Shown: piece by piece, positions 25,231 through 59,900 of the stretch
Position numbering within the stretch: the first letter of the stretch is position 1
How the letters are laid out: the number at the start of each line of letters is the position of its first letter
Assembly: GCA_964035545.1 (NCBI GenBank)
Contig: OZ037766.1
Location: 9,557,722-9,621,721, forward strand
DNA: 64,000 bases
From: Bugula neritina
Taxonomy: Eukaryota > Bryozoa > Gymnolaemata > Cheilostomatida > Bugulidae
Direction of reading: 5' to 3'
The notes under the pieces: generated by a model
Database searches by the model: none
What the model saw: only the letters and a program-made list of their open reading frames with translations
Told to the model about the DNA's origin: nothing
Program-made: the position numbers and the translations under genes

Positions 25231-28069
25231 GGTTACAAAATAGGTGACGAGAGGAAGCTGGTAAGACGATATACTTTACTGAAAGACATTGCAATAAAAT
25301 TTATCACATTTCTCATTATGTGCCATATATTAATATTATTATTGCAGTATGAGTATTGGTGTAATTACAGTTAGTGAGTTACTGAAAAAAAATGTAATCA
25401 GTAATGTGAATGATCTACTTCATTGAGCGGAAGTTCTGAAATATAGCTCAATTGGGATCACTAAAATCGTATTCGCAAATTTAACCCAATGGAGTTCAGG
25501 CCCGGCCACACACTCGTGAGAATCACACAAAATCGTCTATTTCAAACGTATATTTCACATTATCGTAATAATTATTATTTTGAAAGCTTGTAGACGAGCC
25601 ATCCAAATCTACTTTAACTTACTTTTTTTAAAGTGAAAGAAAAATATACTGTATACCACAATCCAGATATGTTCTCATTTGCAGACCTTGCAATTCACGA
25701 TTGGACTTCATTTGTTTGTTATTGGCCAGTTGAGAGGATGTTGTCTTGCAGCAGAACATTATCATATTCTATGTGTTCTAAGACAATTCTTTTTGTCATT
25801 TATTAATTTTAAATTTTATTAGCAGAATTATATTGATATTCATGCTCATATTGTAAAATTACAGTCTTTTACTGGTATAAAAGTTATAGGTATAATGTGG
25901 AATGGTCTATCTTGGCTACAGATTTCATAATTTTGATCCTATTAGCTTTGCACCATAAATTAGAGGATGAATAAAAATACATTAAACAAGCAGTAATCAT
26001 TGGATCTAATGCATGATAATAGAATAGGTATATATTAATTTTGCAAAATTTAAGCGATTATAACAGCAACCATACAAAACGGGCTACATTCAGTTATTTG
26101 CATGAACTAAGCTAATTTTATTCAGTTTCAACAGACTTCTTCAATTTAATTTTGAGAGTTGCCAGGAAAATCAAAGAAAATGTTGCAGAAATTTTATGTA
26201 ATTAGCATACAGTTGGAACAATTGATGTCACGGTTATTTCACTGATAATGCAGGTAAAATTGTTTTAATAGTACCAAAAGATGCACTAGATGTATATAAA
26301 TTATTTTCTCTGTAGGCTCTAAACTAAACCAACACTATAAAAATAATTATTGTTTCATTCATTAGTTGCTAACTTAAAATAGAATATTTATGTATTAAAA
26401 GCATATTATTTCCTTTTGCTACTGGTCAATAAAACAATTTCCAGGTAATGCAAAGTATTTTACCACCAATACTATAAACTTTAAATAATATTATTGCCAT
26501 TTTTATTAATTCATAGACTTATATAATTAACTGCAAGTGTTCTATATGAAAAGCAGTTAATAAAAATATGGAATATAATACTTTGTAATTTTATGTAGTA
26601 GCAGCAATGGTAGTGGTAACTGTACATATACAAGCTTGTGAAAACTATTGTAATAAATATTCAAATATTTCATTTCTGAAAAAGTACTTTATTAATTTTA
26701 GATATATTTCATACATGTAATTTGTGCTGAAAACATTGATAAATAGAATCAAGTTAGTGATGTAACTTAATTTTCATCATATTTCTCTACGGTGATCATA
26801 TATAGTTCAATTTTTACTGAACTTCAACCTGGTTTAGATACTAAATATTATGCTTTATATGGCATTAAACACACCATCAAGTAGCAATTCTTCAGAGATC
26901 ATGGAAATGTTAGCATAGTATGCTATGAGCGCATGAATCTCTCTCATCGGTGATTATATTAACACTTCTATAGTTTTTTACTACTGCAAGTTTTTAAATC
27001 CGTGATTATAATATAATGTTACAAGTCAACTAACGTATACATGGAGTTATCCCCTCTAAGCATAATTCGCTTTTAGGAAGGCCTACTGAACCAGAGTGAT
27101 ATATACCTTTAACTCTTTGGTTTGAACTGATAGTAATTATAGGGATAACATTTAATGGTCAATAATTGGTGTCATTACATTGGTTATGAGTTGTGGGTAA
27201 CAGAATTTAAAAACTGCTGCAGTGCTTTCAATGGAGGGATAACCAGGCCTATTAATTGTAAAATTGTTGGTTATATAACTGGGTGAAGTTTTATAGCCTT
27301 GCAACTAAAAAAGGAAGTAGCCCACGGTATCTACTCAAATAGTTTGTTTCAGTGTAGTTTAGTATTGAAGTGAAATAAAGAAGTCTGATTTTTGTGCTCT
27401 TGCACTTTTTGAAACTCATGTGGTGTATGGGCGTGGTAGAATAGTCACGTGTTACACCAATCAACCACACACAAAGCACCTGCTTTGTATATAGGCATCG
27501 GACGCTTGTATTTGACAACCCCGCTATACAATTATTGCACATTAATCGTTATAATACTATTTATTAGATTGTGCAGTTATACGAAGTTTACACGTTAGTA
27601 ATTCTAGTTCTACAGTTGCACTGTAACGTCAACGTGATCTTGTACGCTTGCATCATCAATGGTAAAGTATAGCTAGTAAAATGTGTGAACTATGTTGTCG
27701 AGATTATTTAGTGGCGACAAAAACAGTCTGCAATCATTACATGACATTGTCATTCACATTTTGATTGCAAGCTCAGATAATCGCTAAGCCTAAGAGCACG
27801 ACTGCCTACTCCTAGCTCGGGACTTATGCAGATGCCGATGGTAATGATACATGTTTGAGTTTGTAGTTTTGCCCATAACAATAAATGTAATATTATGTTC
27901 TAGTCACCACCTTGACTACCTGAGGGTGAATAGTAAAAGTAATATTATTAGTAATAGCTGTGCTTATTTGATGTATATTAATGTTTTAATTTATTATAAT
28001 TGTTGCATGTATACTATAGGTATAAGTATAAATCAATGTCACTTTTAGTTTACAGTGTGAGTTTAGTAA
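25231..28069. other. Intergenic region, no supported gene
   Basis: AT-rich. The open frames seen on either strand are short and lack splice-consistent neighbours or family motifs. It may hold distal regulatory DNA of the CYLD homologue, but nothing specific is visible. Confidence 0.3.
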
Positions 28070-28500
28070 ATGTAATAGTACTAGACCTAAGGCTAGTACT
28101 TGTACTAGTACTACTACTAGTAGTAGTAGTAATACTAATAGTAATACTAAACTAATGCTAAGAGTAATAGTAATACTAATAGCAATAGTATTACTATAAC
28201 TATTAGTATTACCAATAGTACTACTAGTACTATTAGTATTACTATTAGTGATACTGATGGTGATAGTCTTGGTGATAGTAAAAGTACAATGTAATTGTAA
28301 TACTAATGCTAATAGTAATAGTAATAATTAGAACGTAATAGTGATAGTCATACTGATAGTAATAATGATTATGGTGTTCATACTGATACTGATAGTGATA
28401 GTAATACTCATAGTCATACTACTACTATTAGTACGAAGTACTAGTAGTAGTAATACTGATAATCATAATGATAATGATGCTCTAACTCTGATTATGATAA
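28070..28500. repeat. Long palindrome-rich ACT/AGT/GAT trinucleotide-like repeat
   Basis: About 430 bases made almost entirely of interspersed tagtaatact, tactattagt, gatactgata and agtagtagt words, so that each strand resembles the other. Examples are 28103-28130 and 28200-28245. The triplets are mostly RNY-like combinations of (A/G)(G/A)T and (A)(C/T)T, without a strict period. Confidence 0.6.
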
Positions 28501-31148: not shown

Positions 31149-34100
31149 ATGACGACGTCTGCTAACAGTATGAGCCTATCTAGCCATGACAGCTTGCAGG
31201 GATCAGATGTTCAAGAGACTAGGAAGTATATATTACTCCGTGACACTGTAGCTAAGGCCAGGTGGTCACATGGTGGCACCAGACTACTCTCCAAGCGAAG
31301 TGAGCAACGTGTGCTAAAAGGAAGTTTATGGCAAGAAGCCGACATGTTAGGAGCTGCCTGTCCTCCATCCAACAGATCTTACAGCAGATCCAGCTCTGTT
31401 TCGTCTCCTCACGCTAACCTCCAGTATAAGCAGACTGTTGAGAGTCTGGAGATCGAGGATTTATCTTTGCAATGTGCTTCCGCCTTTCTGGATGAAATAT
31501 CTAACGAAACGTGTCGACTGTTGCTGGCTATTCCAACTAGTGAAGAGAGGTTTTACATTCACTCTGACACCTTGCGTATGCAACATGCTCAGTTTATTAA
31601 CGTTGGAGCAGACGTCATTGTAACCAAACGGAATATTCCGCCGTGCAGGGCTACTGTCAAGTGGAAAGGCCGGCTTGTTGGGAAACAGGGAGTTTGGTTT
31701 GGTGTGCAAATAATTGTAAGCAGCATAAATAAGACTTTACACATCAGTATAATGAGTTGTATTTGTTATGTTAGAAGTTTATTTGAATTTACCAAATGAT
31801 GCCACCTTGTTGTAATTGATGAGTTAATGTTTTGAGCTATGTCACACTAATTTTCTAAACGTTGGGGGAAATGAGTGAAATTCGAATTCAAAATATGTAT
31901 TATTACATTGGGGCACAAGTATTTATGCCCAATTAAATTAAATCTGATGAAATCTATCCTACATTATTTATAATTGTGCAAGAACTGTCTACCAAATAGG
32001 CCTGGCTCTGCAGGTAACTAAGGTGAAAATAGGGCCAGAATGGGTAAGGCAAGGTTGGGCTGGGGCAACTGCACAATTATGTTATAGGTGGAGAGTTGCT
32101 AGCATATTGGCAGCTGCTGTAATCATATAAAGGGTCATCGCATTTACTTATTGGATAAGTTATGGGATCTTCCTAGTGCTGTATTGATTAGCTAGCATAC
32201 AATGTATCAGAGTGTAGGTTATTCTCCCATACTTGTAGTTCTCCTTATGCTGGTTTCCATATTACTAGCTGTGTGTACAATAATTTAGAAGTACTCTAAG
32301 AATATGGATTATTCTCTGTATTTCAACGTATAAATTACTTACTTTTCCTCTCAGCTGCTTGCATAAGTGCTACAAGATGTAAACATTTTACTTTCCTCTC
32401 TATGTCTAATCTAAACCATTGGTGTAAGGGAAGGCAATTGTAACCTGGAAAGTTGCTGTTTTATTTAATCATTTAACCATTAGTAAGTGAAAACTTGCAC
32501 ATGTTTTATTATTTAGTATTGACTATTTACAAAATATTCTTAGGACGAAGAAAGCAAAGGCACAGGAGATAGTGATGGTTCAGTGAACAATATTCGATTG
32601 TTTACATGTGAAAAAAACAATGGTATGTTTGTAAATATTGCTCAGTTGATGCTAGTTCCACCAAAGAAGCCCCTAAGAAGGCCAAAGAAGAAAGCTCCGT
32701 CTACCCCGAGTCAGAGAAGTTACAACATGACCAACGGTAGTCAGACTAGCGGAGATCAGTATCTGAATGACTTAGTGAGTCAAACTGAATCAGAGCTCTC
32801 CTTTATGGATGACGTAGCCAGCGCAGAAACTGTGCCGTTGATTGATCTGCAAGTTAACGATAGAGTGGCATGGCCTTCCGATAAAGGATATGAAAAGGCA
32901 CTTGTCAGATGGATAGGCACTCTGCCTGAAGATGATTCACTTCATGGAGAGATTCTAGTTGGGGTAGAATTTGTAAGTTGAACCTAAATGTCACTGCTTA
33001 TACTTTTAAATATTATATACAATAAATGCATGCTGTAGGCTAAGTTTCACCTAAGTAAAGTTTCATCCACTGCTTTTGTTTCTACTATAATGGGTTACGC
33101 TTCTTTAATTGAGCTTAGAAAGTGTCAGTCAGAAGTGATTACATAAATTAAGGTATAATCTTAGTTAGGAATGACCTCATAGTCGCCTAATCATAGGTTA
33201 AATTATCTGGTAGATGTACGTTTTTTGAGAAAACAAGATTGCTGTCAATAACTGGGCTTTACTCTAAAGGAGTGGAGCCCTGCATGCCAAGCTTGTAGAT
33301 AGCCTCTCACAGTATGCGAGCAACATATATTATTTTTAAATTACAAGCATGGGGAATCATGCAAAAATGCTGATATGGATATTCCATTTAAGCACACACC
33401 CTGTGAAACTGCAGCAGCAAGCTGCTATACTGCCGTTGTTACTACCAAAAGTTCTGGCTAGGCAGAAAGCATCTATATTTGTGTGCAGATGGTGGGAATT
33501 AGTGATAGAACTCTACCCTACATATTTCATTAGAATAACTTGTAGAATTTGATCAACTGTCCAGCTAATTCAATAAATTGAGGAGGAACTTCAACATCCC
33601 ACATTCTCTGATTTTCTGTAAAAGTTTTCGTTGGCAGAATTGGCCGTTCAAGCTTTTCTGAAGATGGCCCGTCAACCAATTTTTTTAACTTGTAATCTAT
33701 GAGGCTACCGATGCTGATTATTTTTATCATCTGTTTCTCATTAGTTTAATGGCTTTTGTAATACTATTTTACTAAATAAAATCCATTTCTTTCAGATGCT
33801 AAAACTTCAAAATGTAACTATGATTTTGTTCTCAATAATTGGTTTACTCATAAAAAACCATAATTGACGTAACGCAAGGCTGCCGGCAGCTTAAAGAAGC
33901 ACAGCTTAGCTCATGCTGTGTAGTTGCGTTTTAAGTCAGCACTTTCGCCAGATCTTTCTATTCATTAAACATCTGGGCTATTTATGATTTCCCCCCAACT
34001 CCTAAAACCATTTAGTAGCCATAATCATAATGGAAATAAATATATTTTATGCTTCTAAGCAGGAAAGGTATTGATTCAAAAGCTAAGAAAGAAATTGCAA

Positions 34101-37100
34101 CTAATTATGCAACTAATTTCATGCGATGCATATGTGCTGAAGCTGATGATATATTTGCATAGAGTACTGTGCTCTCCGTGTTTGGTATTTTCAAACTGTG
34201 CTGTAGTAGCACGCCTAGTATTCAGTTGATAATCAGATTTACTGCTGGTAACATAAGTTGCCTTCAAATGTAGAAAGAAAACACTAAAAAAGCTTGTAAT
34301 TTAGTGCAGTACTATTGGTATTATTTGATGCATAATGGTGGTGGTCGATATATGCAGTAGCGTGCTGCCTTTATTTTAGCTTTGGTTTGCTGACTATTGA
34401 ATCTTTAGTGTCACTTTATGGTTATAAACTTACATGTTTTAAATATGAAATTACGTAACTTGAGAAAGTTCCTAATTGGCAACTAATTTCTCTTGAACTG
34501 GAGGTTTCAGCAAAGAGCTGATTGCTACTTAACTAGCTCAACTGTGCTAATGATTATTATTGTGATGGGAATAATACTTGAAAGTGGTAATTTCAGCTTG
34601 CCTTACAGTATCCAGCTTATTGAATAGCCAGTAAATACAGTATTTGGCTAATTTGTGCTTTCTGCCCTGGTGTAGAACATCCTACGGTTAGTTGAACACC
34701 AACAGAACAGCAGCTAGAACAAAGCAATTTCACTTAAAGTCATTTTATGAAATAATTTTTTGTAGGCTTTTGCAGTTTTGAATAAAATACTTGTGTATGA
34801 TTGGTTTTTTGCACTACTGCAATAAATCTTATATAACACTGTAGTGCACTACTTATCCTAAACTTAGCCATTACGCCATTTGACCATTTCAAGTAAATTA
34901 TAATAGTTGCATGTGGAAGCCACTACTCTAGTGTTGTATTGAATACTAGTAATAGTGGACAGCAGAGACAAAAGGGTGTGAAACAAATTAATCAATATAC
35001 TATAATACTGGGAGTAATAACGCACATATTAATGTGTTTATTTAGCGTTGACCTGAACGCTGTGTTTATATATAGAGTTCTCTAGCCACTCAAATAAATA
35101 TGATGTAAATTAATTGATCAGCAGGTGATAAAGAAGGCTCCCAATTGAATGTTTCAACATTTTAATATTTTGATAAAGTTAATTGTTTATTTCTAAATGA
35201 TAAACTTTTACGTAATAGCTGGTGGTAAATAAATATTATTTTATGTATATCATGGTGTTTTGTTGTAACTATTCAAGCTAGTGAAAGTAAACTGTTGTTA
35301 TACAAATGCCCAGCTGCCTGCGATGGCTGCCTGAAGGGTTAACAACATGCAGTTTATGTTCTTAATATTTTTGTTCCTATAGTTGTGTCACTCTGCATAA
35401 TGACACCCTATTAGCCACAAACAATGGAATAATGGAGGTCTTTGGGAATAATATTTGCTGTTTTGTCTCTGTTCATTTGTATTTGTCTGTAGCTCATGAG
35501 GCATTCACTGCTCAGTTACCCCAGTCTTTCATATATCGGGGTTCTGTTATTATATACACAAGGCATAAAGAAAACTTTATTTTAATTACAGGCTGTGTGT
35601 ATTTTACAACCTGGATGCTAATTAAATGCAATTTGATTCAATAAGCATACCCACTCAACCAACGCCATATTTATTTTAAATCAGTGGCAGTAATACTGGA
35701 AGTCAGCAGGATTTGCTGGCAGATCTCCTTTCATATTTAGTATATTTACCTTTCATCATACCAAATAGCAAATCTACTTCACTTTCAAGTGTTGATCAAT
35801 TCTATTTTATTTTGACTGTCACGAGCCATCAAGAGGGTTGGCTATGGCTTCACAACTCATACTCTAGACTTATCCTAATCAGGCATTAACGCTCTATTGA
35901 AATATCAGTATAATGTATGGAAGTTAGACAAGTTCTAAAGTGTCCACTAGTGTTTCACTGCTACCTAAGGGTCAGTATGTTGGTCGGGCAGCAGGCTCTA
36001 GTATTGCTGGAAAACATGCAAAATAACATCATTTTACAAAGTTGATTTCATCTCTTTGCATATTAATATCTGTATCCTAAATATCAGTTTGAGGGTTGTC
36101 TGTTACCCAAGATTATATCTGAGCTGGGCCAAAGTTTGGGCGAAATAATACTAATCCAAGTTCAATTCAAGTAAAGCAAAAACAATGACTTGGTGTAAAT
36201 GTGAAACACTTTGACCCGAATCAACAAGGCATGTAGGGGTAAAATTAAGTAATTTAGAACTTTTGGCTTGTTTTAAATTCTTAAGTTTTGCGCTGAGTGT
36301 ATATGAAATTTCAAGTCGAAAGAATCGAGAGGAGGATTTATGGCCATATAGGGGGAGGGGAGGATTCGTCTACATAATAAGGGTAGGGGTAAGCTATGAG
36401 TCACTTGGCGAACTGTGACATCACTGGATTCAACATAGTTATGTCACAGTTGGGTTTCTTCAATACTTACACTTACTTGCTGGATCAATCAATCTAAGCT
36501 ACTTATGATATGTGGAAATATATGGAACTACTTTGTGTTTGAGTTACTGCCCCTACAGCTGGCTGTGTCTACAGCCATGCAGCTGTACATATAGAACTGT
36601 TCTTTCCCCAATTATTACATTCAGCTAAATAGACTTTCCTTCACCCCTCCTGTAGGGTGCAAGAGAGTGCAAGTAAATAACCTGCGCTGCCTGCCAGTGG
36701 TTGAGTTTTTTATTAGCTATCAATTGTTGCCTCTAGACTTTTATTAGGAGTCAGGGAACTAGTGGTTTTCGCAGACAGAAAGGGCGGGTTGGGAGGTTTT
36801 GTCTTACCGCCCCACCCTGTATTTCTTGCTGCTCGGCTGGTTAGCCAAGCAGCTCTTCTACATAGTGTTGCCAGTTTAATATTATATTGATGGCTGTACT
36901 TGCTTGGTGTAATCTGGTACTGGTTTAACCTTTGCCGTAGTCTGCTATGTACTCTGTGCTATGTACTCTATACCACAACCTATACAATAGCATGTATGTA
37001 TATATATTCTACTCAGTCTACAGTGCTAGGCTACTGTTTTTGGTTTAGCCGCTTTGAAAATTAATTAGTTTCAGTATAATATTAATTTTTACCACTCAAA

Positions 37101-40100
37101 TACTATATACAAACCTCATGTTATTTATCAATAATATATTTCAATAATAATAATACGACATAGGTGAATAAAATTTGTATTAAGCCTACATGATTGAGCA
37201 GAATAATCAAATTTTTATACTATTCAGCGATTAAAGCTGTTGATAAAGTGCTCTCACCTTCTTGTTATAATTACTTATTTATCTTAAGGCTTAGAAGCAA
37301 TAATTTTATGAGAAGTGTTTTATGCACGCCAGCCTTCTTTTATAAGTTAGAACGGCTTAAACTCTCTTCTCCAGATTAAACTTAATAATACCGTCTGCCT
37401 GCTCAGCTCTATAGACTGTATTCTGTACTTTATGTAACCATACTCCTTCCAAATATTTACAAGTATTTACACTGCGGAATATCATTGCAGCTGCCAATAT
37501 TATGAGCATCTGGTGCATGCCATAACAATGATAATGTATTTAGTGCATTGCAATATACCACAACCAGATCCAGCTTAACAGTCTTAAAAATAGCACTCAG
37601 TAGCTCAAAAGGTTTCACTCCAATTATATAAAATTAATTTGATAGAAATAAGTAGGATGCCATGTTATTTGATTAAGGTTTCTTTTCATCGCGGTGTCAA
37701 TCATTTTCAACACTGCATTTCAAATATATACAAGTCTAGCTTGCTGTATTCAACATTGACCCGCGGTCTTGGTTCAAGTAGAACCTGCTGCGCTTGGAAT
37801 TTCTCTCTTGGGACTCGTTCTAAATCGTATCAGTATCAACGTAGACCTAAACCTGTTGAACACTATAACTACTGGCCGTTACTGGACCATCCAGTCCCAA
37901 AACACACTCATAGTTTGTGTTCGGTAAACTAAACGTGTTGGCAGTTGTTTACTCATTTCTAATTATAGCCTAATAAAAAATTTGAGACAAAATATAGCAT
38001 ATAAGCATTTTCAGATGTATGTGATCTATACATATCTAACCATTTTCAGTACAACAGCTCTACCTATAGTTATTGTCACTTAAGCCCCTGTTTGACAAAG
38101 CCTTTGTAACTATATTCCTTATTTTAATGTAGGCAATGTTTTCCCTGATAATTTTTAATTCTCTGAATGTTTTTTTACATTTTACTAAACAAAAGCAATT
38201 TATTTTTACTAAACAAAATATAATTAAAGCAATTAAAGTACTTCATCTTTTGAGTAAAGGGCAGTATTTTCAGAGTTGAACTTTTTGTGTGCTGTTATCA
38301 CTTCTGAATGTTGAAGTGCTTGTTGTAATTTAACAAGTAGCTGATATATTATCTTGGGCCAGCTATTCGTTGCATTTTATATAACACATCTTCTTATCAT
38401 TACAGGATAACCCCATAGGTAAAGGTACTGGTGTTTATAAAAACAAAAGATTGTTTGAGGCCAAGAAAGGTCACGCGTCTTTAGTGCCTGTTGATGGGCT
38501 ACTCAAGATATCCTCATCAACATCCTCTCTGCGGAACCCATCTGATTCCAGTAGCCAACTCTCCCTATCAAATCCAGCTCGAACTGAAGGTAATGGCTTA
38601 CAGCATCAGTAGATACTATACATTACGTTATGTCACATTTAATAGCTAATGTGGGAAATTTTCATCTGTCCCTGGCTTGTAGTTCATATTTCATACCTGT
38701 GTTATGTAATATTTTTTTTAGTCAAGTGATGATGAAATAAGACATGAATTTTATATTTTTAGTAAGATAGTTACTATATGATATACATGGCGATATCGTG
38801 TTGCAGTGACTGCTATGCTGTTACAGGTACTAGTAGGTCACTACACAGACAGAGAACTGCTGCCGATGTGCTAGAGTCTATAGGTATTGGCGACCTTGAA
38901 CCCTCAGACCTAAATAACAACAGCGGAGGAATGAGTCCAGAAATTAATGATCAAGCTTTTCCTTCCCCCAATGAGGATATGCTGTCTTCCCAGAAACCAA
39001 ACCTTGCCAGTGCTGATAAATCTGCAGACCAAGGTATATCTGTGGCCATTTCTTACCTGCAGTCAGTCTATTATATCATAAAAACGTATTCAATGCTCCC
39101 ATTAATACATCTGCACATCACTGAAGTAGCAATCGGCGTGTTGGAAGATCCCATGTGGTCAGAAACATTCTATCAAAGAGGTTCCAAAATTAAGTAAATT
39201 TGAAACTTTACAGTTGAGTAAACTGGTGCTGTTTGTCCTGCACTGAAAGTTTAATACTCAAATACTTCTGTTTCCATTGATATGTTAGACTTTATTTGAA
39301 GATAGATTTAAATCAACACATTACTCATACATCTTGTTAGTCTTGCTGTAGCTCTGTTGTATGCTTAAACTTGGTCCCCAGTGAGTTATCTCCCCTGCTA
39401 ATAGTTTGTCTTGGATCTAATAGTTTGGTATTTGGTACATACTCTGATTAGTAAAGTTAATTTAAACAGCTTAAACCCTAAGTGATAAGTAGACTAGTGG
39501 AAATATAATTTTTCTAGTCGACACTTTATGAAACTGTAAAGTCACTTGTACAGTTTTTTCAAGAACACTTGACTAGAATGAAGTGAATATTGAGTTAACA
39601 TTTCATTGGCTGAAAAGTTGACTTTTTGTTTGGCATATCTTTATAATGAGTTGATCAGAGAAGAATCCTTGAGTATATAAGTATGACCTTGACATTGTGT
39701 TCTTTCAGCAGGTTGACTAAGAAGTAATTGGCCATAAGTCCAATAAAAGTGCTTTTATATTTCTCGACAAATAATAAATGTTTATGTCCGTATGAAAAAA
39801 CAAATTTTACACTTTTTACATTTATTTTAGATGTTCTAAATTCAGCTGCAAAACCAAGTATTCCTGTAAATACTTTGGTTAATGGAAGTCTGGCCCACAG
39901 TGCCTGTTCACTCAGTTCGACTAGTTCCCCTCACAATCACAGTCTCTACGATTCCCCAGCCGCCAGACTTCCTGTTAATGGAGATAGTGTAGTCCCACCC
40001 CTACACACAGCTGACTGCAACGGTCCCTCAACTGACACTATGAACTCTGCGTTACACTCATCTGGTGCTACCAATAGCCATGCCAATTCTCGACTGGATG

Positions 40101-43100
40101 ACAATAGTTGGAGTGACAGTACGAGCAGTTTGCCCGAGTATGCTACTCCCTCTGTAGTTCCTCAATCAGTCAAGTATTTACCCGACAAGGTCGCTGTTCT
40201 GTCTCGTCAAATGCCAAAGCTGCACAAGTTTGCTAAACAAAATTCTTTCACTCGGAAAAAAATAGCAAGAGCTAAAAATGGACTAGTGAAGATACACCAC
40301 ACACCATCTTTGGATGTTAGAGAAATGCATGATATTGTTGATGAACTTTCATTAAATTCTTCTATGAATGTTTCTTCGATTGACTCTTTTTCTCAGAATA
40401 AACTTCTAGAAGATTCTGTAAGATTGCAGCCATCTCCAGAGCCTCAATTGGCTCATTCACGCAGCTCTGAGCTACTTGCAGAGGAGAATAAATATGCACA
40501 TGAAATAGCTCACGGTCTGTCTGTGAAAACTTCTCAAAGCTCCGAGACAGATCGCATGACGTCACCCTCTTCTTCGGAAGGAAGTTATTCACCGCAGTTA
40601 GAGTACCTGTCAGCGTTTTCTCACAGGATGCCATCTTCGTGTTTAGAAACAGACGTTGATGCAGGTATACTCAGCACGCCTGTCTGTGCGGTGCCTGCTC
40701 CATTCACAACGTCACATTCACAAGACAGCGCTGACAATGCTGACAGCGCATACTGCATCATACCAGACCCACCTCTCGAGTTTATGAACGACACGACTGA
40801 CGTTAGCTTGCATGTAGGGTTGTGGAAAGGCATTGCGGGTACTGTCTCTCCTGGAGCTAATGCTAACTTTGTGGAAGCTGTTCTATTTCTTCTTAGTGTA
40901 TCTACTGATATACTATGTGACACTGATCAGGAATCGTCTTACCCTACTCTCAAATCTTATCTCATGGAACACATTACTCTTCCACTGAGAAGGTATTGTA
41001 GCTTGTTATTAGAATTATTTTCTACTTTTAGTTTAAAATCACTATTACAAAGTCTACACCTTTACATATTATATACATACACACAGACGTCAGCAAACAC
41101 ACACACGCACACATGTCTGTATGTATATATATTTGCAGTGGAAGATTTATCGATGTGGATGTTATGAAGAAATGGCGGCAAGAACTGAACGAGATTTCGA
41201 CTGGACAACTGCTGCCGGTAAGCAGTGGCCGGGAGATGCAGAAGTTCCTCACGCTGCTGCTGCAACACATTTGCAATTTACACCCACTGCACGAGTTCAA
41301 GTGAGATATTCTATCAGCTAGTATTTAACTTGAAGCTGTTTTGATCTCCAGGAGATTCGAAAACTTTTTTCATAGAAGCTTTTTGAGATTTATTGAGTCT
41401 ACTTAGAATAAAGATGATATATGTTAATCAGAAAAAGTCAGTCACCTAATATAAAAGGGTAGCTGTTAAATAATTGTATTCTGTAGGGTTAAATGATCCT
41501 TTTTCTAGAATAGTGTGTGCCCCATGTTTGTTGGTATCAGTGCGTGTCATGAGTCTTAACGTTACACAGAGACTGCTATGCGGATTGGTCTCTGTGCGAC
41601 AAACTGTAATATTTACCTGATTGTTTACCTGTAAAGGCAGCAATTGTTGCAGCAACCTGAAAGCTGACTATACGATGACTCTGTTTGCTCACAAAGATGC
41701 CAGAGTAGGATTCCCTACTGTTCAAAAGTTGTTAGAGAAAACTTGTATACAGGAGAAAGTTAAATTCAACAAGGTATGTCGATGTATCACACTGAGGACT
41801 GGGTGTTAGTGCAGTGTGTGCCTTGCTTGTGTATAGCGTACTAAAATATTTTTACAAATAATACATGAATGACAAAATGAATGAAATTGATTATCCCAAG
41901 TGTGAGAAGTATGCACTCTGTGTTGGAGTTGTTCACACCTTTATTTTTCTCTCTATTGAGCTACAACTGGTAACTAAGGGTCCTAAATGCACTTGTTTGC
42001 ATTAGGTATTATGAAAATAGCACTGCTAATGTACTTTTTCAATAATATTCAATTGGCAGTGTTGTTTTGTTCCTTGATTTTAGAAAGGTCAGACTAATAA
42101 ACCTGTTGGTTGGAGCTGAAATCTCTTTTAATGCTTAATATATAGAATTAATTGTTTCATGTTTTTAAGAACGTTTGTTCTAAATTTCTCCTATGAACAA
42201 TTAATTTATTATAATGTAAGCAGAGACTGACAAGGTATAGCAACAGGAACAATCATAATATTATTTCTAATAACATTTTATTATCTAGTAAACAATATTG
42301 TAGATAATATCTCTGAACAGTGTAGTTAGACAGATTATTCTTTGAAGTTGTTGATTCAAACTATTTGAGAAAAGTTTTAAACTAAACAGCTATTGACCTC
42401 TTGACCTATGACTTTGACTTGCAGGTGCCAGATAATTTAATACTTATTTTGCCAAGATGGAGTCTGGGTGAAGAAAAAATATTTCCAAACCTTCACATTG
42501 ACTTGACAGATGTGTTAGAATATGGTTAGTGTGAGATGCAGTTTTTTATCTGACCATGTTATAAGCTCTAAAATAATCAACTTTTACGATGTGAATAATT
42601 TTATATGCAGTGAAATGTTAACATAGAAATTATAAACTAAAACTTTTAAGCCAACTAATTGATAAAGTTTATTTCATGCAGTGTTATTGAGGATACAAAA
42701 AAGTATTGGGTTGCTTCCAATAATCATCCAATGATATTCCGTAAGACAAAATAGTTGCTGTGAGTCTTAGGCTCACTACAGAACTATTTAATAATTGGGA
42801 ATTGTGTTTTGTGAATGTTAAATAAACAATATTAGTTGGTAATTGTGTTGATTAGTTGGGAAAAACTCTTGCTTGCAAATTGTAAGCAATTTTGTGAATT
42901 TTTTAAATAATTTTCTAAAACTTGTGTAGATATGCAATACTGCATAACACAACTTTTCCATTTTAATTTAGTTTATTCCAACTGTTTGTTTTATTAGGTT
43001 AAATAAATTGTGTATGTCACTGCAAAAAGTTTTTTCCTAAAGAATAGCACCTTTATAGGTTTTGGTTACATTGAAGATGAATGTTCTCTCTAGCTATTTT

Positions 43101-44635
43101 AAAAGTTGCCTATAATAAGACAACCCAATCGGATAAATTTCTAATTTTCCTTAGCTTTTTTGTGTAAATTCATCTTTACAAAGTATAGAGAATATTGGTT
43201 ACCCTCCCCCTAACATGTGGTATAACTTTGAGACTGACTGTGTTGTAGCTAAGAGAGTGTGCCACATGTGTGGAGACCAGGCAGTGTTTGAGTGTCCAGA
43301 GTGTTATGAACAAGAACACACAGATCTATCTTCAGCAGCTTTCTGTCAGCCATGTTCACAAACCGTAAGTTTTAATTAATTGTCTTTTTATAACTTCTTC
43401 CTCTAATTAAGTTCATATAAATGTATGTGTGAATTGCCAGTGTAATTCGAAATGCAGCAAAGCAAAGTGTTCGTATCTGGTTAAAGTTAGTTATTACCGA
43501 ACTATTTTAATCAGGACTTTTAATATTCAGTTACCTGTGTTTCCGGTTTTCTGTTTTGCGTTGATTTTCCTTTAATCCCAGAGAAATTCGCACATCTTTT
43601 AATATCAAGGTCGGTGGTAACTTTACTTCGGTTTTGTAGATTCACAAACACTCAAAAAGACTGAAGCATATGCCCGTAGAGTTGAAGATGGTAACACAGC
43701 TGGGAGATGAAGAGAGTTCTATACTAATACTGAAGGGTATACTGTCTGTACACGGCAGCAACTACACTACTCTGTCTCAGCCACCCAGGACATCTAGGAA
43801 TTCACTTCACAACTCCACTCTTCCGAACTGGCTCTCTTTCAACCCAAGAGCTGCTACTAATGGTACAATATATACTCTTTATATCTATACTCTGTAGGAG
43901 CGAATAGTCTTATATCTTGTTTGAACTACAAGAACTTTAGTAATTATGTTGTTGAATTGTTTTGGAGTTATCTTTTCAAGAGCCAAAGTTTCAGTTTTCT
44001 TTGAGTGTTGAATTACTGCTACAACTAAATGTATGTCGGCTACGTTCAACTTTTTCAGTGTTTTGGTTTTATGTGGATTTTTAATTGTTTTAAAACTTGA
44101 ATTTTGGGTTGGAGCATTTAAGCTGTCTATGATTACTTTTCCCAGGCCTCAGAATTATAAAGTTGTGCTGAAAAAGAGATTATATTTTAGCTCAAAATAA
44201 ATTTTCTACTTTTTGTGTATTGTCTACTAATAACTCTTAAATCAACAGCCATTTCTCAAACTTTTTTCTAGTAATCTTGTAATCGTCCAAATATTTTAAG
44301 TTTATAATTGAAAAAGTTCCTACCTTTTTATCAACCTTATAAATTCCTAAATCCAATCTCAAGTATGTTTAACCTGTATATATTTTGCAATTGTAATAAA
44401 TTAGATAGATGTCAATTTTCTCCCTTAACATTAAATGCTATGTTCTGAATATTTTATAGATTTCACTGGAACAGAGTCTGTATCTCACATACCAGAAGTC
44501 ATGCTAGTGGAGTCGGTGCCCAACTGGTTGTCTATGGATGCATATGATTGCATGGCTAAAGACATCAACACTATACCAGACAATATTAGACAGTTACTTC
44601 ATAGCTGCTGCATGTGTGTATATAGCAAGTCATGA
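31149..44635 (+). CDS. CYLD: CYLD homologue: CAP-Gly and USP-fold protein lacking the catalytic triad
   Basis: CYLD is a Lys63/Met1-ubiquitin deubiquitinase that restrains NF-kB signalling and binds microtubules. Exons: 31149-31715, 32544-32972, 38406-38589, 38827-39033, 39831-40992, 41139-41300, 41641-41773, 42425-42524, 43249-43364, 43640-43862, 44460-44635. All phases agree: 3459 nt, about 1152 aa (human 956). CAP-Gly 1 spans exons 1-2 (VKWKGRLVGKQGVWFGVQI). CAP-Gly 2 spans exons 2-3 (ALVRWIGTLPEDDSLHGE, DNPIGKGTGVYKNKRLFEAK). A Ser-rich linker fills most of the 1162-nt exon. The USP fold follows (LPRWSLGEEKIFPNLHIDLT; B-box Cys in CHMCGDQAVFECPECYE, then HKHSKRLKH). The positions of the catalytic Cys, His and Asp all read Asn (codons 40865, 43760, 43841). 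No third CAP-Gly domain was found. The start is the first ATG after the acceptor at 31140-31141. Confidence 0.88.
32973..38405 (+). other. Large intron of the CYLD homologue
   Basis: 5.4-kb intron between phase-0 boundaries that split CAP-Gly 2. Its open frames (for example at 33349, 35432 and 37639) lack recognisable motifs or phase-matched splice sites. Short purine-rich and CTCTGTGCTATGTA-type local repeats occur near 36300-36370 and 36945-36970. Confidence 0.5.
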
Positions 44636-50953: not shown

Positions 50954-53900
50954 TCAGTCTGCTGCTGCGTAATCCACAGGCTAAAATAAATATATTAGTA
51001 GATGATAAAAATTAGCCCCAGTTACTGTGATATTACTAGATTAGTAATCAGTGTAACAGCTTAAATTGAATGCATATTGGAGTTACCTAATCATCGAACA
51101 GTGAGGCAGTCTGAGAAATGTGTTGAGGTTTGCATATAAAAAAATTAAAGACGTTTGATGAGTGGAAACTCATTTACTAGTAAACAATACTTTGGAAAAT
51201 AGGTTTGCACTTACCATTACATATACATTTTGAGGAATAACTTACCAGTACACATACACTTCGAGGAATAACTCACCATTACATATACACTTTGAGGAAT
51301 AACTCACCATTACATATACACTTTGAGGAATGAGTTTGTTGATTGTGTCACTCATATTAGAATTTTTCATCATTTGCAGCTTGAATGGTGGAAGTGACAG
51401 ATTGCCTGAGCTCAAAGGGTAGATTGTATAGCTGATGGAATGAGATGCGTGGGGTAATGTTCGAAAGTGGAGCTGAAAGAAAAAGAAAAAGTAGCTGCGT
51501 CCCAGGGGTGCTTCACTTTGTTACTTTAACAGCAAGCAGATGCACTGGCAACATAATGTTTTACTATTTGTTAATGACTTGAATAACCTTCCCAGAAAGA
51601 TTCCAAATGCCAGTTACACAGCAGCTGTTATGTTTACTAGTGACGGCACCATTTATCTACACTGCAATTGATTATAAGTATTCTACTGATGAGATAGATC
51701 ATTTTTCAGCTGATCTTAGCCTGGAAGTTATATGCAGAAACTAGTATAGAGAGAGGAGCTACTGCTACAATATGTTAGTTAGAAATTAATTCATCAACTG
51801 TGGAATGAGATTCCATAACTTAGCAACAAAAGTATGCACCTTTCCATAACCCTAGTATTAGTTGAAAGAATAGAAATGAAGTAACCCAACAGTTACAAAA
51901 TGTGTCTGATAACTGGGGACCACAGTTAGATTATCTGCACATGACTGGGGTGGGAAATAAAATATTAAATGCCGTAACCACAATAATATTTCGGTGCACG
52001 TGAGTGAGTCAGCTCTCACTGATTCTAAAATGGATAACTTTGCAACTTTTCTTTGATAGGTTCAACAATGTTTTAGAAATTGTCCTCCACAGATTGATAT
52101 ATTGGAATAACGGCCCACAGTACAAGAATGTGGTAAGGAGTAATTACCTGCTTATGTCCGCTGAAAGCAAATGAGTCACAGCTGTCCATGCTAGCCTCAA
52201 ACTCCTGCACATAGCTTGTCTTATTGTACAGAGTGTAGACTATTTGTAGAGGTTTATAAACCACACCATAGGCTGGTAAATCGCACTCAATATACAAAGG
52301 TTGGTGCTCAACTGTGAGAGCAGGTAAACTAACTGTTGTTTCTACTAGGCCAGCTTTATCATCGCTCTCTTGTCTGAATAATACAACATAATTCTTACAA
52401 TTCGTACCATTACTATTATATAGCAAAGTAATGATATTCAAATTAAGATGGCTATACAGTACTACCAGAAAATAGGCGACATAACTCTTTAATTTTTAAT
52501 TTCGGTAAACACCACTACAAGAACAAAACGGAACAAATCCAGCACATGTTGAAATCACACACCTTCTCCATGCTATCTTATATTCGCCGGGTATGATGTC
52601 TTTATTGGAAGGTTCTGGAATGACAAGACACTGAAACTCAGTAGCTTCTTCCTCACTACCCAGAACTAGGTCAGCTATCTGAGCAATGGTCTGATTGGAG
52701 TCAGCTGGAACGTGACTGGACTGTGAGAAAACCATATAGTGTTTCAGTGACTTGGTGACTAATGTTAAACATGTGCTACATATAAGAATATGAGAATATA
52801 AGCTTTAAAACACACATTGGGCTTAAAGGTTCCATCACAACAGCAACTCCACGTGGCAGCAGTTGATTACACCAGACGGAACATATTAAACTTAGTTTGC
52901 AAGCCTTGATTATTGACATCTATTCAGATGACTTAATTTGAACATGACTTGTAATTGATTTCCTCTACAAACCAAATGAAACATGATTTGACATGACTTT
53001 TAGCCATTGACTTGATTTTACTTGACCTTAGACTGAAATAACAGTATTTTCTAACTTTTTCCACAGCTAAAATGGTGAAAGGCAAAACTAAACATATATT
53101 TCGTCTGCTATTCTGTCAATTAACAACAAAGGCCGGCAGCCCAAATATATTTTGTCATAAATAACATTGAACTAGAGGTTAGTTAATAACTACAGATGTG
53201 TGCCTAGTTACAGGTTATGCGAGGACAAGAAAAGCATAGCATTTATGATAAACTGCATAAATATACCCACCAGCAGCAGTTGTGCATTTTGTATAAATAG
53301 TGGATACTCAGATATATTGCAAATGTTGAACTGTAGCAGAAATGGTTCGTCGGAATTCACTGTGAGTCTGTCTTCTAACTATAAAATAACATAATATTAT
53401 AACTCGAATTTTTCCATCTGATATAAGATGATCTGATTTATTGGACCGAGTGAAATGGGAGTTGTGGCACCAGGTTAACTGCCAGATAGGGTTTACTTTT
53501 ATCAGTGTGAGATTATAGAACTATTTCCTGGCACCGAAGCAGAGAAACGGTCTCATTTGGTTGCCAATAAGTGATTCGCAACTTTAGCAGTTTCAGCAAA
53601 AGCCACAAAACTTAAAGGTCAACAGGTTCAAGGTGCAAAAAACTACACAAACCCATCAGAACAAATAAATTGTCAAAAAAAGGAGGTCTTAACAACCAGT
53701 GAGTGATGATACATATATTTTTTTCAAGATAGGATATGCTTTTATAAGCGGTGAAAAGTTGATATGTGTAGTGCAACAACTTGGGAAAAATTAGTATATA
53801 TTATTTTATGCACAATATATTAGTTCAAGTAGGTTTGTATCGCGGCTCTGGTTATCAGAAACTGTACCAAACACCAATCTGTACTATAAAATTATATAAA

Positions 53901-56900
53901 AAAATTATCATTACCAAAATGTCCGACTAAAGTCATCTAGTCAAAGGAGCATAATATAAGCCTACTTTAGTGGACAGAAAACGAGAGGTGGTCCTGAATG
54001 GCTCCACCACCTCCAGATGCACATCTGCACTCTTATAGAACTCCTCAGTTCCTATGTTATACACAACACTAGCGGTGACGTCTACTTTGCCCACCTCTCT
54101 GCATTGCAGGTATACCTTGGTCTCCACCTAACATCAAACAACTGATGCTACAATGTTTACCGGATATTTATGTATGCACATCACATGTGTTACATATTGA
54201 GTTTTTACTCAAATGTTGGAAATATAAGTAATATGTCAGCGCACTGAATTAGAAATGATACTTTCAGAGTAAAAGATTATTGAGCTGAGTTGTATTTTAT
54301 CCAATACACAGCTCATCTGCCAACCCAAGAGAAAAAACTTCATATATTTGTCCTGCAACTTACCTGTTCCCCTTGTTTGAGTTGTTCTAGACAGAAGACA
54401 TGTGAGCCGTTGTGGGACTGCTGGGCATCATCTTGAGCTATGCTCAGTACCGTATTGACACTGGTGTCCTTTATAGTATAGGAGCATCTACAGTTGCACA
54501 ATAGACTTACTGTAGAACAAGCTAACATATGCTTGCATGGTTGGTGAAAATAAAAAAAATATATATATAATTCAGATTTTGACTCCAGAGTTCATTTAGC
54601 TTAAAACACAATACTAGAGTGGGCTAGGCTATACACTTTTTAAAACAAGTACAGTTTTAGTTTCCTTCAATGATCAGGTCATCTGTACTTTGTTTTACTG
54701 ATGTGGGAGATCCTTTTCTAATCTCCAACATGACTAGCTTAATCTTAACTTGGTGTTGCATAAAAAGTTATTAGATATTGCCCATTAGTGACAAGTAGAC
54801 TACGGAATATTCAAATCTGGGAATTGATGAAGCAACCCAACATTCTTTGATTAACTTAATATTTCAAGTAATTAAATGCCAATAGTTGAAATAATGACTG
54901 TTCTTACTGATTGTAAGGTAATAACTTGCTTTTAAGACAATAATCTTACTGAGTTATTTTTATAACAAGTGAAGATTCACCAAATTGCAGAATTGCCAAT
55001 CTTGAAGGTATAAATGCACATTAAAAGTGTTACGTTCTACCGCTAATACAGCTCAACAGTACTAACCTAACATTAGTTATGTCGCTGGTCTCATTGTTGA
55101 CGAGGAGCCAAGTGATTGGGAAATGTTCGTTGAGAAGACATCTAGAGTGGCACTCAGGGGTTACCTTCAGCTCAGAGGTGCGACATTGAAGACTAAAACA
55201 AATAAATATTATAGATGAATAGGACAGCCACTGGTTATTATTATGCACCACTTTGCAACCAATAAAATATTCACGCTACAAAATCATTTTTATAACTGAC
55301 CTAAAATACAAACTCCTTGCCTATTCAATACTGTCAGAGCTGGGTCCAAGCTTCATTGACTCAAATACTTGACATTTATTGATTGGATTTGGCTTAATTA
55401 ACTTGAATGCTTAATAATTTTGATTAAATTTGTGTAATCTTTTAATAGGCATTATACCAGAGTATATATGGTATGCCTAATGAAATTACCAACTTAGGTA
55501 TACGCTATTTGATTACTGTAATTTAGAAACTAGTTGTAGATGTAATTGTATGTTATTTAACACCACACCAGAGCCTTTATATTCTGCTGTGTCTTGCATA
55601 AATTACAATGTTTACAATGTGGTATTGAATAGGGTATTGATGCAACAGTGTCTGTAATCACAACATAGCAGCTTAATGAATAGCTGTCAGAAAATGTTAG
55701 CATAGGTGTTCATCTCTTAGTCAATAATTATAGGTTAGTGAAACCAGCAGATTCACCTGACGTGGTTGTTGACAGGAAGTACGTCCCATGAAGGCATGGT
55801 GTCAGCATCACGCAATGACAGAAGATCGGCAGCTCCACAATTGGCTACTGAAGAAGCTCCAACTTTAAAGTTCAACGTTACGGTTATTGCAGAGACAAAC
55901 TTTAAATGGATGTTTGTTACCTGAAACAATTATCAAATGAATTTGAATGATAGAACAAAAGCACAATAATTTCTGTTGTTGGAAACATGAAGATTCTAAA
56001 AGACAACAACCAGTTTTCTTAGTAGAGAATACTGCAGCTACTGTAACTGTAAGCCTTCGTGACAAAGTAAAGTCAAGAAATATAAGTTTGAGCAATTACT
56101 TGTGAAACAGTTTTTATGCATTGATTTTCATTTGAGACTTCTAGTCTAATTTCAACAAAAATATAACATATGCCACTAGATATGGTGATACTCAAACATT
56201 TCTTATAAGCAGTCTACTCACCTGCAAAGATTTGTTCATGTCTTTCATGTTTGGTTGTAAAGTGAAAATAAAAGATTTGGTTTCATTGGGCAGGAAGAAC
56301 AAATCTCTAGAGCTAAGCTCTTCCTGCTCCATTGCAGTTCTTAAGTCCCCTTCGTCCTTCACCACACACTGGGCATCATATCTCTGAATAGACATACCAT
56401 TATAATTATGTTACTTGCTTCACAATGTGTAATACTTCATGATATAATAGTAATCGTGTAGGCATCTAGTATGTAAGAAACATAGGCTTAGAATCTGCTC
56501 CTGCTTGCAACTAGATTATTAATATGGATATCACAAAATATTTTATCAAACTATTTACATAACATCTCACTTTATTGCACTCTAACAAGTTACCAAATGA
56601 GTCATTTTACTTTATTTAGTACACATCAGCAAGTTAGGACCAAACATTAAAGTTGGCTCAAAATTCATGAGACTTAACTATATGGGGCACTTTCATGTGC
56701 TAATTCCAAATTTGTATAGCAAAAATACTGGGAAGGGGTCCTGTAACATTAAAGCGCAACGTCATTGTCATGTATACTCTATTTTAAACCATAGCTCTCC
56801 TACCCAAAATTGTATGATATAAATATAGTAACAAAAACAGGCTACAATGTGTAAAGAAGACAACTTACGGCATCATTGAACATAATTCTGAGCTCTGAAA

Positions 56901-59900
56901 ATCTCAAAGGAAAATGAGACTTGCATTTGATGTAAACTCTTAACTCTACATCCTCATCTACCTTGTAGGAAGGCTGCATGAAGCATACCTTGTACTCGAC
57001 TATAACAAACGAAAACATAAATTATGTGCCCACACATTAGTATCTAACGAGCAATAGCAATAGCGTGCAGGAAAAATAGGTATAATGTCAAGAAAAGAAA
57101 TTACTACGAAAATTGGATAAATGTTTCATTTGTTGTGCAACAGCAAACAAACAAGTTTGCAAAACAGTAAACATATGGCAACCTGGTCAAAAATCCAACT
57201 TTTTAGGTAATTAAGATTTCAAAATATGCATTAAATAACACATATTAAATCATAAATATGATTTGTGAACCAGTGAGGAGCTGCTCAATATGATAAACAA
57301 ACGTTTTAAACTCTGAGCTTCAAAAACGCCATCAAAAATATAAAATCAACTCACTTGATAAGAAAAAAACCCAAAAATTAACTGTTAAGTTTAAAGTGCC
57401 AACTCTTATTGCATTAACACAGATGGAGCTGCAGAGAACTCTATGATGAGTACAGTTTCAACTTATAACAGATGTATCCAGCATAGTATAATCAAATCTT
57501 TTAAATTTCTGACTAATTTTAAAGCAACTTCCATTGAAAGATAGTTAAAAATAGTTCAAGCTAATATTTATACATTATAATTTAAATTCTAAAAGCCTGA
57601 TTTGCCATTTAATGCAATACATAGTTAAAAAAAACTTTTAAAGGCAAAACTGCTCATTTTAGAAATACAAGGAGATTCACACACATATATACATATAAAT
57701 ATTATAGGCAATATCACTGTCATGTAGCATGAAAACTTTTCAAAGGAAAATTTTGTTTTCTGTGAAAAAAAAGCTTCCAAGTGTAAGCAACTACACTATA
57801 GTATACTTTCTAGCACAGATGCTAAAAGCATACTCCAAGATGTGCTAGAAGCATAAGACGTGGACATTCTAATTAAAGAAAAGTGTACTCACTGAAAGAC
57901 AGGATGTTCACCATGTCTATTGCTAAAGGAGACGATACAAAATCTGTGCTGTTGACTACCAACTGCCACTCTTTATTAGCCAGTTCCACTGCATGTGAGT
58001 CACATCCAGGTTGGGGGTCTGGCACTTCTCCCTAAATTTAGTAAAGCAGCATGATAAAAATATACAGCAATTATGTGGAAGAATATTACTGATGTGTTAT
58101 AGCACACATGCCAATATTTACTTTCGATGAGTGTTATTCTATGTATAATTACCATGGCAAGGAGAGCAAAGTTTCCAATAAAAATTTGATCTACTGGCCT
58201 ACTGCATTGAAAACTCAGATTTCAGTCAAATTTTAAATGATTGATTGTTGATACAAGCTTTGCTGAACAACTATACTGGAATATAACCTGTTCTATTCTG
58301 CTGGACATAAGCATACAATATAACTAACACAAAGCTGACAGTATGACTCACACAGATCAACTGCAGCAAATCTGACTGAACTTTGCACTTAGTTTCTGCA
58401 GATCTGCATATTTTCTCTGCCATAAACTCCAGAGACAATGTGATGTAATTTTCCACATCAGCGAGTAGGTATGCACCTTTCAGAGCAGTAGCCAGCACCG
58501 AGGTGAGGAGATAATACCACTTTTCCTTTCGGTAATCCTGTGCAATGCTTGTCAATATTCTACAGAATAAGTCATAGATGCCTCAGCATATTTCTACACT
58601 GATGTGCCATGCCCGGTTAAACCAATCATTGTCTAATTGATAAACTACACATTTCAATTTCTTTTTAGCCAACATCGAATTTTCTACAAATTTCTGATGA
58701 CTTCAGAGTTAAAACTTACTGCAGTGCCTTCTTGTATGCTTTGGAATAGTAATGCTCTTCTCCAATCATCACCACTGTAACATAAATAGCAAGATGTGGG
58801 AGAAATCAGTTGTGTACAGTATCATGTATTCATTCTAATGAAGTGTGCACTTAACCTAGTTAGTGATTATATTGTTACTATTACACCAGAGTAAGTCTCA
58901 GCATGCTATAGCCATACTTTAAAAGCTGCGAAAGTAAAATAAGTACTAGTAAGCATATAAAAATACTATAATGTGCTGCGAGATAACGGTGCACAGTTCC
59001 AGGTCATGCCACCTACAGTTGTCAATACAGTATAAAGTTGATATTACATTATATACAGACAAATAGTAAACATACAGAGATGAAGCTTCATCCGGGTAGA
59101 CCGGTGCTTTTGGAAATGGTTAACAGCTAAAGTGAGCAAGTTTATTATCTCCCCCTGTAACAGCACAACGGATATGTGTCAGTATATAAAGAGGGGTGCA
59201 TAAAATTATGAAAATTAATATAATCGTGTATTCATAAAAATATAGCTATAATAAATCATGTACAATGGCTGCAGTAAAGTTTGAAACACACATGCCTGAA
59301 ACACATTTATGAGAACAAGTTTAAATATAAGATGACAATTTAACGAGCTTGTCAACAAAGTTTTAATTTTGAAATGCCTTTAACATATTATTTGAGTCTA
59401 ATTTAGGAAACATGTATGTAACTAAGACGGCCCAATGTTCTGCCTTAAACTAAGACAGCACACATAAGAAAGCACATGTGATTTCAAATAGCCTGAAGTC
59501 TCACTACTCACAGAGTGGTCAGTCTGGAGCTCTAAGGCCTGTAGGGAATGAACAGCCTGGTCAGATACAACCCAGCCACCTCCTTCCATGCTAGTGGCAC
59601 CTGAGAAATGTCACAGTATAATATAATGAGAACATCAAACAACTCTTATGCAAAACACATCACACAAAGTACTGTATAAAACACACCACACAACATACTG
59701 TAGTTGCTTATATAACATACCTTGCTGTTGAAAGACAGGAAAGGGCCTGTGGCCATAAAATTCTACATGATCAGCTGGTGCAGAAGGTGCTAGCCCATCA
59801 GTACGCTGAAAGATATAAAAATAATTGATACTATTACAACTACCAGAATAGCCTCAACACAGTGAAGTAATATAATGAGAAGACAACATAACAACTAAAT

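Follow-up and report, generated by a model that had tools for sequence, protein, structure and literature searches.

A CYLD family gene of Bugula neritina with asparagine at all three catalytic-triad positions

In human CYLD, a tumour suppressor, a single protein performs both catalytic and adaptor roles, which makes the two difficult to tell apart. Human CYLD has three CAP-Gly domains, two of which bind ubiquitin, and GKNDG is the tubulin motif of CAP-Gly domains. Enzyme families also hold dead members with regulatory roles, such as the pseudo-caspase FLIP(L), which controls its active partner. In the excerpted text of PMC10919355, pseudo-deubiquitinases of the USP family act as allosteric activators or scaffolds. 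USP39 and USP52 are described there as USP relatives without the needed catalytic residues, a status reconsidered in that paper, and no CYLD paralogue is among the pseudo-deubiquitinases named in that excerpt. No title or abstract reports a CYLD paralogue without a triad among the literature matches listed for CYLD pseudoenzymes and for CYLD in lophotrochozoans, and we found no literature on CYLD together with bryozoa. FLIP(L) resembles the situation described below in being a dead paralogue kept beside active enzymes (PMC7586951, in excerpt), although it belongs to another enzyme family, and control of a partner is a proposal for the bryozoan gene.

We analysed a 64,000-nucleotide stretch of Bugula neritina DNA (the window). 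Its + strand carries 11 coding exons (31149-44635) of a CYLD relative of ~1,150 amino acids, with two CAP-Gly domains ahead of a USP domain into which a zinc B-box (CxxC, CxxC, CxxC, HxH and H) is inserted. A sequence-only reading had described an open frame over 11 exons with consistent phases; in our splice model the spliced gene indeed reads as a single open frame, its phases are compatible and 10/10 introns have GT-AG borders. That reading gave the triad codon positions correctly, but the gene is wider than its span of 40841..43843. Exon 1 (31149..31715) encodes the N-terminus (residues 1-189) and the first half of CAP-Gly 1. Exon 2 (32544..32972) encodes the remainder of CAP-Gly 1, a linker and the start of CAP-Gly 2, and contains a Pfam CAP-Gly match at G000:C2:9590280-9590366 of the genome contigs. 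CAP-Gly 2 ends in exon 3 (38406..38589), placed by the splice model, Pfam and PDB matches; its first 32 residues share 78% identity with copy B, one of two further CYLD genes described below. A linker occupies exon 4 (38827..39033; GT-AG, compatible phases) and continues into exon 5 (39831..40992), where the USP domain starts and Asn808 (AAC, 40865-40867) stands at the Cys position. The USP domain runs on through exons 6 (41139..41300), 7 (41653..41773) and 8 (42425..42524), exons 6 and 8 being placed by the splice model and the HMMER alignment. Exon 9 (43249..43364) carries the zinc B-box with six Cys. Exon 10 (43640..43862) carries the B-box His residues, Asn1061 (43760-43762) at the His position and Asn1088 (43841-43843) at the Asp position, and exon 11 (44460..44635) ends in CCMCVYSKS and a TGA stop (44633-44635). 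An alternative acceptor in the splice model would start exon 7 at 41641. The start at 41653 is more likely, if not certain, because the four intervening residues are absent from copies B and C and from P0002, a B. neritina record named CYLD by NCBI on a 154,577-base contig distinct from this assembly; the vertebrate sequence does have residues there.

All three triad codons are AAC and lie where the sequence-only reading had put asparagine. We aligned the USP part (363-residue query) to CYLD structures with HMMER. Query residues 40-361 matched human CYLD 2vhf (E 3.9e-34, 121.4 bits), with SHY of 2vhf aligned to SNY and WLFFD to WLSFN; the first 39 residues were aligned via the 3wxe group, in which NSSYLD aligns to NANFVE. 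These three pairings agree with those proposed by eye. The Cys position is thus set by 3wxe, of the CYLD complex series, and not by 2vhf; we take NSSYLD in 3wxe to be a Cys-to-Ser crystal mutant, and 3wxe-3wxg to be complexes of zebrafish CYLD. Significant alignment to the CYLD structures extends across most of the USP domain. Compared with a vertebrate composite, 103 of 337 aligned positions of the USP part are identical and the local score is 348; 300 shuffles scored at most 63. An AlphaFold model of P0002, made from an alignment of P0002 and the related records P0001 and P0003 only, reached pLDDT 36, so the USP fold assignment rests on the sequence alignment. Together with the CAP-Gly domains and the inserted B-box, this alignment identifies the gene as a CYLD family member by descent. 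It shares with CYLD (2vhf; 3wxe-3wxg) the order of CAP-Gly domains and then a USP domain with an inserted B-box, and differs by its Asn triad, two CAP-Gly domains instead of three, and altered PRFGKDF and KDPEE segments. The nucleophilic Cys, catalytic His and catalytic Asp of an active cysteine deubiquitinase are all absent. We also considered takeover by another Cys or His. Within the aligned active-site segments no candidate is conserved, the nearest, H1058, three residues before N1061, being Gln in P0002.

The related records bear on the age of the change. P0002 has the same Asn/Asn/Asn triad, whereas P0001 and P0003 each cover only the Cys position and read Asn there. The codons imply at least two base substitutions at the Cys position and one each at the His and Asp positions. 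Sequencing or assembly error is very unlikely as the source, since these substitutions are needed and the changes recur in P0002. P0003 is a diverged relative (26/55 aligned USP residues differ from the window gene), and its Asn, with the full Asn triad of P0002, indicates that the change is old and not an assembly error. Leaving aside a 4-residue gap, 5/354 aligned USP positions differ from P0002, and 26/332 linker positions differ from P0001. The contrast between these is significant (Fisher p 6e-5) when the two different sequences are pooled, but not with P0001 alone (2/55 vs 26/332) or with P0002 alone. A protein search with residues 795-1152 scored 0/2813 candidates, and with P0002 as the query the matches among 1109 candidates were P0002 and P0001 alone.

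A genome search found two CYLD genes beside the window gene, both partial models on the minus strand. Copy B (C1:14,027,422-14,019,477) has a Ser/His/Arg triad, and copy C (C1:9,732,281-9,727,445) has an intact Cys/His/Asp triad; a second, active-type CYLD elsewhere in the genome had been anticipated from the window alone. Six USP introns lie at corresponding places in all three genes, which points to an old DNA-level duplication. Copy C shares these introns, in the same phases, and the B-box with the window gene but differs in its triad, in its better match to 2vhf (235.7 vs 121.4 bits) and in having repeated GY..G motifs in an upstream exon. In the USP tree the window gene clusters with copy B, which also resembles it in lacking a catalytic Cys and in its N-terminus (36% identity over window-gene residues 1-188). 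Copy B departs from the window gene in its triad residues and in still matching Pfam UCH (35.0 bits).

The CAP-Gly domains also vary. Pfam detected two CAP_GLY stretches in the window gene (E 2.5e-27) and no third. CAP-Gly 1 has CYLD 1whl as its best PDB match. CAP-Gly 2 has no CYLD entry among its 5 PDB matches, so ubiquitin binding cannot be transferred to it from human CYLD. The GKNDG motif is in neither domain of the protein sequence. Copy B has both CAP-Gly domains by alignment to the window gene, with one Pfam exon match.

We consider the window gene to be, with a probability of about 0.8, an old and conserved pseudo-deubiquitinase acting non-catalytically through its B-box and CAP-Gly domains, a function predicted from domain content. 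It would have arisen by the old duplication and been kept after losing cysteine-protease chemistry. The B-box and CAP-Gly domains may tether adaptors or ubiquitinated signalling complexes, and perhaps also copy C, without cutting chains, and intact copy C would be available to carry catalysis. It appears that the role of the protein persisted after its enzymatic activity was lost. As excerpted, PMC10919355 describes a catalytically dead CYLD whose adaptor role rescues a signalling defect. Against this reading, the C601A form of human CYLD is unable to control NOD2 signalling in cells (excerpt of PMC8511506), so some CYLD functions are lost with catalysis. Models of SPATA2, HOIP and NEMO gave no match in this genome but were equally silent in the controls, so their silence speaks neither for nor against the reading.

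An alternative that we hold to be unlikely is that CYLD is split. Copy C would then be the catalytic part, seemingly lacking CAP-Gly domains, and copy B and the window gene would be pseudo-subunits that have them. Through the B-box these two would pair with copy C and direct it to ubiquitin or the cytoskeleton. The distribution of domains fits: neither gene with CAP-Gly domains has a complete triad, and for copy C, which has one, tblastn with five CAP-Gly queries over ~37 kb upstream returned only chance-like hits (best E 0.38), the nearest Pfam CAP-Gly on its contig being 0.9 Mb distant. All three genes keep the B-box, which induces dimers in human CYLD and is its dimerisation module (PMC8511506, in excerpt). 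However, the 5' end of the copy C model is unmapped, a diverged CAP-Gly might have escaped detection, and the pairing is a proposal. The wider version, in which Bugula and perhaps bryozoans at large divide CYLD among paralogues and use dead copies as regulatory subunits of a live one through the B-box, is doubtful. If the split were real, a one-chain tumour-suppressor enzyme would here operate as an assembly of several paralogous subunits.

We think it quite improbable that the gene is a decaying pseudogene that lost its triad first, with the remainder to follow. Constraint is relaxed around N808 and N1061, where 4/5 USP differences from P0002 fall within five residues (post hoc p 2e-4), and the longest USP-tree branch (1.10) leads to the window gene and P0002, compared with 0.93 for the vertebrate sequence, 0.68 for copy C and 0.66 for copy B. 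However, the 11 exons are open over 13.5 kb, and Asn at the Cys position of diverged P0003 makes the loss look old, yet the frame is still open. We also counted, in regions that we chose ourselves, how many residues common to vertebrate CYLD and copy C are retained in the window gene: 15/15 in the B-box and 45/94 in the remainder (p 9e-5), and 8/26 within 6 columns of the triad (p 0.03 against all other columns). The sequence-only reading had called the gene unlike a decaying pseudogene with its B-box Cys/His retained, and the frame, splice sites, B-box and few USP differences from P0002 support that view. A still-active hydrolase with unconventional catalysis is highly improbable: USP53 and USP54, annotated as pseudoenzymes, proved active, but the USP54 structure has a canonical triad (excerpt of PMC12037411), whereas the window gene has none of the three residues, eroded surroundings and a non-conserved H1058.

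A natural lineage in which the domains occur in paralogues both with the chemistry and without it, and in which the B-box persists as the active site erodes, would show which part of CYLD selection keeps once catalysis is gone. This genome offers two degrees of natural triad deficiency in CYLD, Ser/His/Arg and Asn/Asn/Asn, next to an intact copy. The Ser/His/Arg gene, copy B, is an extra triad-deficient copy that the sequence-only reading had not foreseen.

The CYLD relative lies on the plus strand at positions 31149-44635 of the window (G000:C2:9557722-9621721 in the searched assembly of 215.8 Mb and 295 contigs). Its eleven exons splice into a single frame with compatible phases, and all 10 introns are GT-AG, which bears out the open frame described in the sequence-only reading. 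The gene has 1,152 codons as modelled, or 1,148 if exon 7 begins at 41653 instead of 41641; the later start is favored by P0002, another B. neritina record, and by two further CYLD genes of the same genome, copies B and C. The protein matches two CAP-Gly domains in Pfam and gave no Pfam match to the UCH family. In the PDB it matches the CYLD structures 2vhf (E 3.9e-34) and the 3wxe group (E 4e-17 to 6.4e-17). The best PDB match of the first CAP-Gly domain is CYLD 1whl, and none of the five PDB matches of the second is a CYLD. Just 5' of exon 1, the short segment 30794-30861 is flanked by a good acceptor and a good donor and is a candidate 5' untranslated exon of the gene.

The codons and the PDB alignment place Asn808, Asn1061 and Asn1088 at the catalytic Cys, His and Asp positions, and the three Asn codons fall exactly where that reading had put them. 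In human CYLD the His and Asp are H871 and D889. The human Cys is C601, as given in a part of PMC8511506. H1058, three residues ahead of N1061, is the sole nearby His and is Gln in P0002. Searching with the long exon 5 retrieved three proteins among 3444 candidates: P0002, named CYLD [Bugula neritina]; P0001, a JGI protein with 93% identity; and the more distant P0003. P0002 has Asn at all three triad positions (SNSNFVEA, GSNYTT, WLSFNPR). P0001 and P0003 span only the first position, where both have Asn (VSNFIEP in P0003). Along exon 5, P0003 agrees with the window protein at 105 of 280 positions ahead of the USP domain and at 29 of 55 inside it. These sequences suggest that P0003 is an orthologue, in which case the Cys would have been lost before the split from its lineage.

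Within the USP part, the window protein and P0002 differ at 5 of 354 aligned positions (A805S, A807S, E865D, S1056C and H1058Q), a count that excludes the gap of 4 residues where exons 6 and 7 meet. All but E865D are clustered no more than five residues from N808 or N1061 (post hoc p 2e-4). Such small differences are in keeping with the cryptic species that the B. neritina complex contains, according to a portion of PMC11480708. In the linker, 26 of 332 positions distinguish the window protein from P0001. The contrast between USP (versus P0002) and linker (versus P0001) gives p 6e-5 with two comparisons pooled; it is not significant within P0001 alone (p 0.40) and marginal against P0003 (p 0.05). 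On the whole, these alignments point to a gene that keeps its fold while the former active-site loops appear to be drifting.

A CAP-Gly family search of the genome gave 18 matches, and of the regions examined around three of these, one contained a second CYLD. With a vertebrate USP search (8 candidates scored), 7 exons were matched, and they fall at three loci: the window, C1 near 14.02 Mb and C1 near 9.73 Mb. The set of three copies is seen in one species, and a fourth, very divergent copy may also exist. Copy B (C1, minus strand; CAP-Gly exons 14027422-14025973, USP exons 14022439-14019477; modelled without middle exons) has Ser, His and Arg in the triad motifs (GSSYVD, GSHYIT, WLLFRG). Copy C (C1, minus strand; USP exons 9730897-9727445) has an intact Cys, His and Asp (NSCYMD, TSHYVT, WLFFDSM), and it is the candidate for the active CYLD suspected elsewhere in the genome. 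Matches to 2vhf decrease from copy C (235.7 bits) through copy B (198.4) to the window gene (121.4). Pfam UCH scored 38.3 for copy C and 35.0 for copy B, and had no match in P0002, as in the window protein.

Six USP introns occupy corresponding places, judged by eye, with equal phases in the three copies, which therefore arose by duplication at the DNA level. The shared introns rule out a retrocopy origin. The USP tree separates the window gene, P0002 and copy B from copy C and a vertebrate composite sequence with 100% support by both bootstraps; a set of five sequences fits more than one root, and the duplication may be bryozoan or older. Pairwise USP identity is 34.3% between the window gene and B, 32.0% between the window gene and C, and 35.8% between B and C; identity to the vertebrate sequence is 38.8% for copy C and 29.0% for the window gene.

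We counted the alignment columns identical in copy C and vertebrate CYLD, using regions set after the alignment was seen. All 15 such B-box columns are kept in the window gene, as the sequence-only reading had held for the B-box Cys/His residues, and all 15 in copy B, versus 45 and 50 of the remaining 94, respectively (p 9e-5 and 3e-4). Within six columns of the triad, the window gene keeps 8 of 26 and copy B 14 of 26. Compared with all other columns this gives p 0.03 and p 0.66, so active-site erosion is clear in the window gene alone.

CAP-Gly domains are carried by the window gene and copy B. In the ~37 kb upstream of the first modelled exon of copy C, tblastn with five CAP-Gly queries (E up to 10) found only weak, chance-like pieces (best E 0.38), and the sole piece with the right place and strand lacked a CAP-Gly continuation. 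On the same contig, the closest Pfam CAP-Gly match lies at 10.67 Mb. Because the scan of the genome recovered just a single exon from the window gene and one from copy B, a diverged CAP-Gly could have escaped detection. A phase-compatible 317-codon exon upstream of the copy C USP (C1:9732281-9731331, minus strand, in L030) has about eight GY..G-like motifs at intervals of some 19 to 26 residues, and it matches nothing in Pfam. Translated frames suggest repeat tracts near copy C similar to the one upstream of the window gene (28050-28480), which consists of degenerate short ACTAGT/AGTAAT-type repeats.

The window protein may work without catalysis, as an adaptor or a reader of ubiquitin, and perhaps as a partner of copy C. 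We infer this from human CYLD, which, according to parts of PMC8511506, has two ubiquitin-binding CAP-Gly domains and dimerizes through its B-box, and from Zhao et al., as cited in a section of PMC10919355, where catalytically dead CYLD is a TRAF2-NEMO adaptor that can rescue a signalling defect. Against this, human CYLD C601A did not restore NOD2 control (PMC8511506, in part), so a dead CYLD covers some CYLD functions and not others. Pseudo-DUBs as such are well established, ~13% of DUBs by one account (PMC10919355, in part). Among the titles and abstracts listed for CYLD pseudoenzymes and for bryozoan or lophotrochozoan CYLD, a coverage outside which most subscription journals fall, we found no report of a triad-less CYLD paralogue. 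The pseudoenzyme label calls for caution because USP53 and USP54, once so called, are active, and the USP54 structure shows a canonical triad (PMC12037411, in part).

Neighbors in the window are a UAA-family transporter exon (5066-5296, plus strand), a single-frame galactosyltransferase (8263-9390, minus strand) and a TRAPPC11-like gene (52073-58582, minus strand; Foie-gras match over and Gryzun under the Pfam cut-off). Non-LTR retroelement-like fragments occur at 2149-2556 and 23143-24687 (minus strand), with a reverse transcriptase match in one of three tested. USP matches on small contigs such as C74:3509-5101 (L002), C55 (L003), C14 (L004) and C144 (L008) are rich in in-frame TAA/TAG and lack TGA, although occasional TGA codons do occur on certain others of the small contigs. 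Judging from the codons, TAA/TAG are seemingly read as amino acids on these contigs, which look like DNA of a colony-associated ciliate rather than of the bryozoan.
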